A DNA stretch of 34,654 nt from an uncultured Myxococcales bacterium (lineage in GTDB: Bacteria; Myxococcota_A; UBA9042): positions 1 through 34,654 of the forward strand of contig CAITYF010000073.1 in the NCBI GenBank assembly GCA_903896545.1, written 5' to 3'. Positions 29,017 to 31,224 of the stretch are shown here, in pieces. The position numbers and the translations under genes were made by a program. The notes below the pieces were generated by a model that had not been told where the DNA came from, did no database searches, and was given only the letters and a program-made list of their open reading frames with translations. How positions within the stretch are numbered: position 1 is the first letter of the stretch; every line of letters starts with the position of its first letter.

Positions 29017-31224
29017 TCAGGAGTGAGGAGTGCGCGCCGTGACGAGGCCCGTCGCGGCCGCCAGAATCTCCGACTTGCGCGCGTGCAGCCGCATGTGGCC
29101 TTGCTGAATGCCTTCACCCGCCAGCGCTCGGAGCGCCGCGAGGTTGGACGCCAGACCTGCGGCTGCCATCACAACCGCCAGCTGCCGCGCGCCATCAACG
29201 CGCACCAGCTCCATCGCGGCGCGAACGCCGGGATGCGCTTGCACCGAACCGCCCACCGTCCCGATCGCGAGCGGCATTTCCATGACGCCATGCAAACCCG
29301 TCGGCGTCCGCGACCAGGTGGCCAGCGGGCGGTATTCACGACCGAGTCCGGCGAAAGCGTGGGCGCCCGCTTCAATCGCCCGCCAATCTTGCCCCAGGGC
29401 CAGGGCGACGGCGTCGATGCCGTTCATGATGCCTTTGTTGTGCGTGCTGGCGCGGAACGGATCCATTTCAGCAAAGCGGCTTGCGCGCGCGACGCCATCG
29501 GCAAGTTCCTCGCCGCCCAGCATCTCCGACGTGACGTCGCATTCGATGTGGACCAGACGACGCAACGGCAAATTCGACAAGATACGCAGACCGATGTGAC
29601 CGCCGATCCACGACTGCACCAAGGGCGCCAGCTTCTCGGCGACCGTGTCGACCACGTTGGCGCCCATCGCGTCGCCGACATCGACGTAGAGGTGCAGCAC
29701 GAGCAGGCCGCTTTCGACGTCCAACTCCCGCGTGTCCGCGTCCACACAGCCGCCACCGCGCGCGACCATGCGCGGAATCGCTTCATTGGCCAATGCGATG
29801 ATCTGCTCGCGGCGTTCTCGCAGTAGCTTGGTTGCTTCGGGCAGATTCGGCACCCGGTCAAACTGCACCTGCGCGGTCATCACCGAGCGCGTCGCATCGC
29901 CGCGGAAGCCGCCGGACGCCCGGACCATCCGCGCCGCGTTGGAGCATGCCGCCACGACGGAGGGTTCTTCGACGACCATCGGAATCAGGTGATCACGGCC
30001 GTTCACACGGAAGTTCAGGCCAAGCGACATCGGCAGCGCGAACGTCGAGATGACGTTTTCCGTCATGTGGTCCGCGACGCCCAAGTCCAGTGTCCCTTCG
30101 CGCAGGTACCGCTGCGTCGCATGCGAGAGCCCCAACTGGCGGGCAAGCGCGCGGCGGCGTTCGGGCACCGACTTCTTGTAGAACTCGGCAAAGCGGCTGG
30201 TATAGCCCGTGTGGCTCGCACTGGGCGGTTCCACCGGATCGAGCTCCAACGACGCGGCCAGCTCCGCCAGCTGATTGGGCAACAGCGCCTGCGGGCCATC
30301 GCTCCGTGCATGCGCCGGCTGGTCGTGGGTTTCCACAAGGATAATCTGCGCGCCCGCGGCGACGCTCGCCTTGGCCAGGGGCAGCACCAAGTCACGCCGA
30401 CCCACGCCGTGCGACGGATCGACCGCGACCGGCAACTTCAGCACGTGGCGCAGGTACGCAACGGCGGCGAGGTCCAGCGTGTTGCGCATTTCCAAGTTCG
30501 GTCCGGCGATGCCGCGCTCGCAGAACACGACGTACGGGCAGCCATGGCGCAGCAGGTGTTCGCCCGCCAACAGCCACTCGTCGATTCCGACGCCGCGCGC
30601 GCGCTTGAGCAGTGTCGGCCGACCGGTCCGGCCTACGGCTGCGAGCAGCGAAAAATTCTGCATGTTGCGCGAGCCGACCTGAATGATGTCAGCCACCTGC
30701 GCGACAGCTTCAACGTGCAGTTCGCTCATCGCTTCTGTGACGACACCGAGACCGTGTTCGGCCGCTGCGGCTGCGAGCCACGCCAGCGCCTGCTCGCCCT
30801 GACCGGAAAAGCTGTACGGCGACGTCCGCGGCTTGAACGCGCCGCCGCGCAGCATTTGCGCACCGGCCGCGGCGCAAAGCCCGGCGATCGTCTGAATCTG
30901 CGTCTCCGATTCCACCGCGCACGGACCGGCAATCAGCACAGTGCGGTCGCCGCCCAGCCAGATGTCCGCGCCCGACCGGCAACGCACGAGATACCGCTCG
31001 GCGAGCGCGTCGACGAGTGGATGCGGTGACTTGCGTTCGGCAACGTGCGCCACCCCTGGCACCGCGAGTATCTGCTCGGCCGTCACATGCGCCGAATGCG
31101 TTTCCACTTCCACCATCCGCGGCCCGCCGGCGTCCGGCGTGAGCGCGCGCGTCCAGAGGCCCAGACCTTGGAGCGCCGCGGCAACCGCCTTCTCGTCTGC
31201 ATCTTCTCGCAACAGGATGACCAT
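29017..31224 (-). CDS. Fusion protein: DAHP synthase (class Ib, with regulatory domain) joined to class II HMG-CoA reductase
   Basis: A single uninterrupted 735-codon frame. Residues 1-70 form a ferredoxin-like regulatory domain as in Thermotoga DAHP synthase. Residues 75-330 form the TIM-barrel, with metal ligands Cys102 (AGPCAVE), His272 (DPSHGVGRRD), Glu298 and Asp309 (VETHDQPAHARSDG) and the substrate lysine Lys131 (GGAFKPRTSPYSF). After a linker of roughly ten residues, residues 342-735 are a class II HMG-CoA reductase: TENVISTFALP, EEPSVVAACS (Glu420), GDAMGANVVDT (cofactor), HNKGIMNGID (Lys597), GQDWRAIEAG (Asp613) and GIQQGH (His710). The reductase ends about 25 residues after His710, shorter than known class II enzymes. 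AGGGGA precedes the ATG. One protein would start the shikimate and mevalonate branches; both activities are predicted from intact motifs. Confidence 0.93.
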   Translation of the reverse strand: MVILLREDADEKAVAAALQGLGLWTRALTPDAGGPRMVEVETHSAHVTAEQILAVPGVAHVAERKSPHPLVDALAERYLVRCRSGADIWLGGDRTVLIAGPCAVESETQIQTIAGLCAAAGAQMLRGGAFKPRTSPYSFSGQGEQALAWLAAAAAEHGLGVVTEAMSELHVEAVAQVADIIQVGSRNMQNFSLLAAVGRTGRPTLLKRARGVGIDEWLLAGEHLLRHGCPYVVFCERGIAGPNLEMRNTLDLAAVAYLRHVLKLPVAVDPSHGVGRRDLVLPLAKASVAAGAQIILVETHDQPAHARSDGPQALLPNQLAELAASLELDPVEPPSASHTGYTSRFAEFYKKSVPERRRALARQLGLSHATQRYLREGTLDLGVADHMTENVISTFALPMSLGLNFRVNGRDHLIPMVVEEPSVVAACSNAARMVRASGGFRGDATRSVMTAQVQFDRVPNLPEATKLLRERREQIIALANEAIPRMVARGGGCVDADTRELDVESGLLVLHLYVDVGDAMGANVVDTVAEKLAPLVQSWIGGHIGLRILSNLPLRRLVHIECDVTSEMLGGEELADGVARASRFAEMDPFRASTHNKGIMNGIDAVALALGQDWRAIEAGAHAFAGLGREYRPLATWSRTPTGLHGVMEMPLAIGTVGGSVQAHPGVRAAMELVRVDGARQLAVVMAAAGLASNLAALRALAGEGIQQGHMRLHARKSEILAAATGLVTARTPHS

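Follow-up and report, generated by a model that had tools for sequence, protein, structure and literature searches.

Enzyme fusions usually join steps within one pathway. The class Ib DAHP synthase (DAHPS) of Thermotoga maritima (1rzm/3pg9) is a stand-alone enzyme built of an N-terminal ferredoxin-like (FL) domain and a barrel, and the binding of Phe or Tyr to its FL domain is described as inhibiting the enzyme by restricting substrate access (PMC5526877). In the DAHPS-chorismate mutases of Listeria (3nvt/3tfc), Geobacillus (5j6f) and Bacillus, the class Ib barrel is naturally fused to another domain, which belongs to the shikimate branch and is reported to stand at the N-terminus (PMC5526877). 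The class II HMG-CoA reductases (HMGR) of Pseudomonas mevalonii and Delftia acidovorans (1qax, 6dio) also stand alone. The gene described here lies on a contig of an uncultured Myxococcales bacterium (GenBank assembly GCA_903896545.1, contig CAITYF010000073.1; the whole stretch of 34,654 nucleotides (nt) is referred to as the window). It joins a DAHPS with the FL domain, the barrel and the identical metal-ligand residue numbers of the T. maritima enzyme to an HMGR with the fold and catalytic residues of the two class II reductases. In contrast to the DAHPS-chorismate mutases, the partner comes from a different pathway and is attached at the C-terminus. This single chain of the menaquinone (men) gene cluster, predicted to be active in both halves, probably supplies the precursors of both the menaquinone ring and its isoprenoid tail as one co-produced protein.

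The fused open reading frame (ORF) reads from 31224 down to 29017 on the minus strand, which the original prediction had not named, starts with ATG and comprises 735 codons, the only stop being the terminal one. Judged by its length, the product would have a mass of ∼80 kDa. Its parts are the following:

29017..31224, minus strand: fused gene, DAHP synthase (N-terminal half) and class II HMG-CoA reductase (C-terminal half), 735 aa (Pfam, NCBIfam)
30967..31224, minus strand: FL N-terminal domain, residues 1-86 (strand-helix-strand-strand-helix-strand in the structural model)
30250..30966, minus strand: class Ib DAHPS barrel, residues 87-325, metal ligands C102, H272, E298 and D309 (PF00793, TIGR01361)
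30169..30249, minus strand: junction/linker, residues 326-352
29080..30168, minus strand: class II HMG-CoA reductase, residues 353-715, with E420, K597, D613 and H710

The presence of both enzymes in one 735-codon frame, as claimed by the original prediction, was confirmed by the ORF itself and by Pfam and NCBIfam. Residues 87-325 match PF00793 (E 1.4e-63, 214.8 bits against a cut-off of 25.5), and residues 353-715 match PF00368 (E 4.9e-97, 325.7 bits against a cut-off of 27). Three NCBIfam models exceed their cut-offs: TIGR01361 on the DAHPS half (306.7 against 267.75), NF006421, and TIGR00532, which is the best model for the HMGR half (375 against 259.95), while TIGR00533 (NADPH type) stays far under its cut-off there (42.8 against 441.8). 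The DAHPS half has the expected Cys, His, Glu and Asp metal ligands (Cys102, His272, Glu298, Asp309) as well as the KPRTS motif (K131, R133). E420, K597, D613 and H710 align with the catalytic residues of 1qax and presumably act as the catalytic Glu, Lys, Asp and His of HMGR. All of the ligands and catalytic residues stand at exactly the positions originally predicted and, like the Lys and Arg of KPRTS, are invariant in a 29-row alignment of fused proteins. Asp146 of the P. mevalonii enzyme, an NADH contact, aligns with Ile483, so the cofactor preference of the fused HMGR may differ.

In the AlphaFold2 model of the fused protein (mean pLDDT 86.6, pTM 0.67), residues 331-340 are weak (pLDDT 57), so the model is no reliable guide to how the halves lie relative to each other. 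Foldseek and VIA-align matched both halves to solved enzymes, the DAHPS chains of Listeria and Geobacillus being among them, and 1rzm is covered from end to end by the DAHPS profile. The matches spanning both the FL domain and the barrel (1vr6, 1rzm, 4grs) have a root-mean-square deviation of 8-9, so the FL domain is placed differently in the monomer model. The DAHPS of T. maritima is a tetramer, whereas class II HMGR forms a hexamer assembled from dimers.

A protein search yielded 29 clusters of full-length proteins with both domains (P0002-P0030), of which P0002 is the window's own; the other 28 are 67-92% identical to it. The genome search covered 89 genomes of relatives. Within the family, represented by 22 genomes (G000-G021, all draft), the full fusion was found in 13 (G000-G004, G006, G007, G010, G012, G013, G016, G018 and G021), and a 14th copy, in G020, starts at residue 191, where the contig begins. 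No full-length fusion match was listed for the 67 genomes outside the family. The recurrence in relatives beside men genes, which the original prediction proposed to look for, is thereby supported. In four genomes of the same genus (90-92% identical) the 735-codon frame is uninterrupted, and eight further full copies from four other genera, plus one cut copy, are all in frame. A stop codon or frameshift near residue 335 of a close relative, which the original prediction had named as its refutation, was not found.

Pairwise NG86 comparison of five same-genus genomes (ratio of means) gave dN/dS values of 0.067 for the FL domain, 0.069 for the barrel, 0.054 for HMGR, 0.033 for the junction (computable for 5 of 10 pairs) and 0.114 for the last 20 residues; the values indicate purifying selection on both halves and on the junction. 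A stop or frameshift at the junction is rejected both by the intact frames of the relatives and by the low dN/dS across it. The linker between L314 and S343 is 28 residues long in 23 of the 29 fused proteins. Start-like codons do exist at the junction, but none is common to all 13 loci examined there, and a hidden internal start giving a separate HMGR was rejected on this ground; inspection of the junction by eye revealed no obvious ribosome-binding site for such a product.

When the 29-row alignment was used as a profile (best 120 of 3696 rows, 7998 candidates scored, so that a weaker or reversed-order fusion could escape), 33 fused or partly fused rows ranked first (the 29 full-length proteins, P0031 and the fragments P0032, P0033 and P0034), followed mostly by stand-alone HMGRs. 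A second, different HMGR fusion was seen in P0278 and P0279 (∼690 aa), where a squalene/phytoene synthase domain (PF00494) is combined with an HMGR 59% identical to the one described here. No description of a DAHPS-HMGR fusion was found in the titles and abstract openings of the literature searched, in agreement with the original prediction, which knew of no enzyme of such architecture. The fusion is real, conserved and, within that literature, undescribed.

The genes surrounding the fusion in the window are as follows:

31348..32478, minus strand: polyprenyl diphosphate synthase (PPS), 123 nt upstream of the fusion gene (PF00348, E 8.9e-52)
28222..29001, minus strand: menG, demethylmenaquinone methyltransferase, beginning 15 nt past the end of the fusion gene (TIGR01934, over cut-off)
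26897..28261, minus strand: menF-like isochorismate synthase, overlapping menG (PF00425; TIGR00543 best, below cut-off)
25215..26900, minus strand: menD, overlapping menF by 4 nt (TIGR00173, over cut-off)
24403..25218, minus strand: menH-like alpha/beta hydrolase, overlapping menD by 4 nt (PF12697; TIGR03695 best, below cut-off)

The placement of the gene between PPS and menG-menF-menD-menH, also part of the original prediction, agrees with the Pfam and NCBIfam matches. The scores of menD (307 against 244.2) and menG (232.4 against 158.35) exceed the cut-offs, while the top matches of menF (146.3 against 224.75) and menH (158.8 against 208.55) remain below theirs. By their coordinates, the overlapping men genes are arranged in an operon-like manner. 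On the same strand, 75 nt past menH, a 1500-aa ORF (19825-24327) contains eight stretches matching the Dictyostelium CTDC repeat (PF00526). On the plus strand, an outer membrane efflux protein (PF02321, 32657-34021) adjoins the men cluster. Further plus-strand features of the window are a phage-type integrase (PF00589, 730-1935) close to the contig end, a coding-like ORF of 1318 aa (12417-16373) without a Pfam match, two ORFs before it (10662-11819 and 11829-12404) that likewise have none, and a ChrR-type cupin after it (16874-17221).

The proteins of the window served as tblastn queries for mapping gene order in the relatives. Of the 14 fused loci, 11 have PPS upstream and 13 have menG downstream, the run menG-menF-menD is present in 12 and menH in 8; one contig (L113, G020) begins inside the fusion. 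The order PPS-[DAHPS-HMGR]-menG-menF-menD is therefore a repeated one. Each half also occurs in this setting without the other. Four HMGRs from outside the family (L116-L119, ∼61% identity) stand in the order PPS-HMGR-menG-menF-menD with no DAHPS, seven loci (L132, L134, L139, L146, L147, L149 and L150) have PPS-DAHPS-menG with no HMGR between, and three (L137, L148 and L120) have PPS-DAHPS without a menG match. The last of these is a second, PPS-linked DAHPS of G006, located on another contig than its fusion. In G008, PPS-DAHPS-menF-menD-menH are found on one contig (L115) and HMGR-menG on another (L114). Meanwhile, a contig of a Myxococcales metagenome-assembled genome (L001) carries DAHPS (10001-11026) and HMGR (11023-12201) between PPS and menG as two distinct genes that are read in different frames and share 4 nt (ATGA). 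In the best 80 of 582 relatives' loci examined by tblastn, PPS, DAHPS and menG were found beside HMGR only in L001; HMGR stood alone in 74 of the 80, and in L075 PPS adjoins it.

In the DAHPS tree (34 rows), the 13 fused rows group as a single clade (100/100) that falls among men-linked rows; the two kinds of row together are split from the trp-operon isozymes (98/100). F_G020, cut by the contig end, was excluded from this tree, and T_G020 filled only 32% of its columns. The second DAHPS genes of G001 (L144) and G007 (L145) form a distant clade of their own. In the HMGR tree (32 rows), the 14 fused rows form one clade (86/97) next to G008 (99/98), and both lie inside the men-linked HMGR clade (100/100); the tblastn alignment of the F_G010 row ran past its stop (one stop). 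Both trees are compatible with a single fusion event between neighbouring genes: judging from the relatives, a men-linked DAHPS gene would have come to adjoin the HMGR gene of the men cluster, and the coding regions would then have fused once. Both trees are midpoint-rooted, and the direction of change is therefore inferred. In neither tree is L001 the nearest relative of the fused clade; it illustrates the state before fusion and does not represent the ancestor.

The metabolic setting of these genomes bears on what the fused protein may supply. DXR of the methylerythritol route was found in 0 of the 22 family genomes (control positive 10/14), and this route was rejected as the isoprenoid source. 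G000 has a cluster of IDI-2 and MDD, both over cut-off, with two GHMP kinases. None of the 14 fused genomes gave a second HMGR match, which leaves the fusion as the sole HMGR found in each; in 9 of them it is the sole DAHPS as well. Class II DAHPS, considered as a hidden second enzyme, was rejected (0/22; control positive 2/14). Chorismate synthase is present in 22/22. TrpA exceeds its cut-off in two of the 14 fused genomes (G013 and G020, each with a DAHPS beside TrpA) and in six of the eight unfused ones, the two without it being 84% and 67% complete; as the genomes are related, these counts are no test of association. Prephenate dehydratase was found in one of the 22 genomes (G014, unfused) and in none of the fused ones; prephenate dehydrogenase is over cut-off in G014 only (1/22), with one weak match in G005. 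G000 encodes two chorismate-binding proteins, MenF and one for which the PabB models are best, below their cut-offs. Because aromatic amino acid genes are mostly absent while chorismate synthase is kept, the lineage probably takes aromatic amino acids from food and retains the shikimate route mainly for menaquinone and folate. Predatory bacteria are reported to be enriched for mevalonate-pathway genes (PMC4646340, PMC9548883), and the genes associated with predators include HMG-CoA lyase (PMC6210107); a predatory lifestyle of the present family is only a guess.

The fused protein is most likely a bifunctional supply enzyme of a menaquinone-centred metabolism, as predicted from sequence and gene context. 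With chorismate going mainly to menaquinone and folate, as the gene absences suggest, one protein could open both branches. Since the two active sites have no substrate or product in common, they would work independently, and what is gained would be that both halves share dosage, placement and control within one oligomer. The proposal that the fusion serves to tie the amounts of the two enzymes 1:1 was discarded on stoichiometric grounds: each menaquinone molecule needs a single ring but several isoprene units, so equal amounts offer no good rationale.

The related idea that the enzyme is regulated through its N-terminal domain has been weakened. The motif R[TV]x[IV]GxxG[ND]D, found in the FL domain of the T. 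maritima chain (1rzm) and in 7/7 DAHPS copies beside TrpA, can be taken to mark the Tyr/Phe site. It occurs in 0/12 fused loci (F_G020 omitted, and the window copy counted not here but among the clusters, as P0002), 0/29 fused clusters, 0/12 men-linked loci and 0/119 stand-alone relatives listed, the last being those closest to the query and saying little on DAHPSs at large. Instead, LQGLGxW is present in the FL domain of 29/29 fused clusters, and the looser LGxW in 73 of the 119 stand-alone proteins and 8 of the 12 men-linked loci. As none of the fused and men-linked copies examined has the motif that T. maritima DAHPS shares with the trp-operon isozymes, control by Tyr/Phe is unlikely, and another FL ligand, or none, is to be expected; an organism not making Phe or Tyr would have little use for such control. 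A type II DAHPS of secondary metabolism in Pseudomonas aeruginosa is described as having no aromatic amino acid sites (PMC6435475). The changed FL domain would throttle the DAHPS half in response to a signal other than Tyr/Phe, most plausibly a metabolite of the menaquinone branch. A precedent is 1,4-dihydroxy-2-naphthoate (DHNA), reported as a menaquinone-branch regulator acting on MenD in Mycobacterium tuberculosis and Staphylococcus aureus (PMC9835592). There, too, a downstream metabolite controls an early step of menaquinone supply, although it acts on MenD, whereas the control point proposed for the fusion is DAHPS/HMGR. By analogy, DHNA or a similar compound may bind the FL domain of the fused protein. 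The fuller version, in which the protein is the sole entry to the shikimate and mevalonate routes and its N-terminal domain senses a naphthoquinone-branch metabolite such as DHNA, thereby throttling the supply of ring and tail, seems rather unlikely.

Several observations weigh against the bifunctional supply enzyme. Any naming of the FL ligand is guesswork. The mevalonate made through HMGR goes into isoprenoids of every kind, not into menaquinone alone. The men context is not seen at every fused locus: the 16.5-kb contig with the G012 fusion (L112) has no PPS or men match, and in G006 (L111) the contig ends inside menG and no PPS was found in the 1982 nt before the fusion. A second PF00793 enzyme is present in 5 of the 14 fused genomes (G001, G006, G007, G013 and G020), and two of them, G013 and G020, keep the trp operon, so the fusion needs no loss of tryptophan synthesis. 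HMG-CoA synthase (PF01154) was found in 0/22 genomes (control positive 7/14, over cut-off in 6), which leaves the source of HMG-CoA unproven. HMG-CoA lyase (NF004283) is over cut-off in 16/22 genomes and 13 of the 14 fused ones (G003 has two partial matches below), and leucine breakdown could supply HMG-CoA, which is only a lead. In Myxococcus xanthus the reverse direction, isovaleryl-CoA from HMG-CoA, is described (PMC9548883). One must also bear in mind that all absences rest on draft genomes and so carry risk, and that no more than 12 candidates per genome were scored in the protein search, although some genomes had given more at the initial look. Finally, in the 657-aa relative P0031, positions 102, 272, 298 and 309 read A, C, D and A, Lys131 falls in a gap and the FL region is missing, so that one lineage seems to have kept the fusion after losing the DAHPS chemistry.

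The strongest rival is a passive fusion, in which adjacent, translationally coupled operon genes lost a stop codon and the halves work as before, the join itself being functionless. It is compatible with bifunctionality, denying only a gain from joining, and its chances are judged to be somewhat short of even. The overlapping gene pair of L001 is just what such an event would start from, the linker is of low confidence in the model and varies in sequence among relatives, and the active sites are without a common metabolite. The fused state has nevertheless persisted in 29 clusters, at identities as low as 67% and with a linker of near-constant length, and the 13 junctions examined lack a common start codon.

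P0031 raises another possibility, namely that the DAHPS half chiefly serves HMGR as a scaffold or regulatory module, its own catalysis being optional. Besides the changes at the four metal-ligand positions and the loss of the FL region, its barrel is only 42% identical to that of P0020 (71% for P0020-P0015), while its HMGR half is 82% identical to P0020 and keeps all catalytic residues; P0031 is likely a natural pseudoenzyme fusion. As a general account the scaffold is improbable, however, since all catalytic residues checked are conserved throughout the 29 other full-length clusters and 9 of the 14 fused genomes have no other PF00793 enzyme; moreover, P0031 is represented by just one sequence, from a 7.5-kb contig, and may be in decay.

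That the HMGR half runs in the degradative direction, from mevalonate to HMG-CoA, might be read from its best model, TIGR00532, which NCBIfam names 'degradative', and from the presence of HMG-CoA lyase where HMG-CoA synthase was not found. This is very improbable for a gene that sits in a men operon and encodes the only HMGR matched in a genome with IDI-2, MDD (over cut-off), two GHMP kinases and no DXR. An assembly or sequencing artefact, such as a frameshift in one draft contig joining two genes, has a practically negligible chance, being already refuted by the in-frame copies of the same and four other genera and by the low dN/dS across the junction.

The bifunctional supply enzyme predicted here would join the opening reaction of one pathway to the commitment step of a second, although the products of the two come together only many reactions later, in one molecule. 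It suggests a DAHPS isozyme devoted to menaquinone and ties the fusion of that isozyme to a lineage in which aromatic amino acid synthesis has largely been lost. With P0031 as a built-in comparison, the fused enzyme may serve as a natural system for asking whether ring and tail of an isoprenoid quinone are controlled jointly by a cell.
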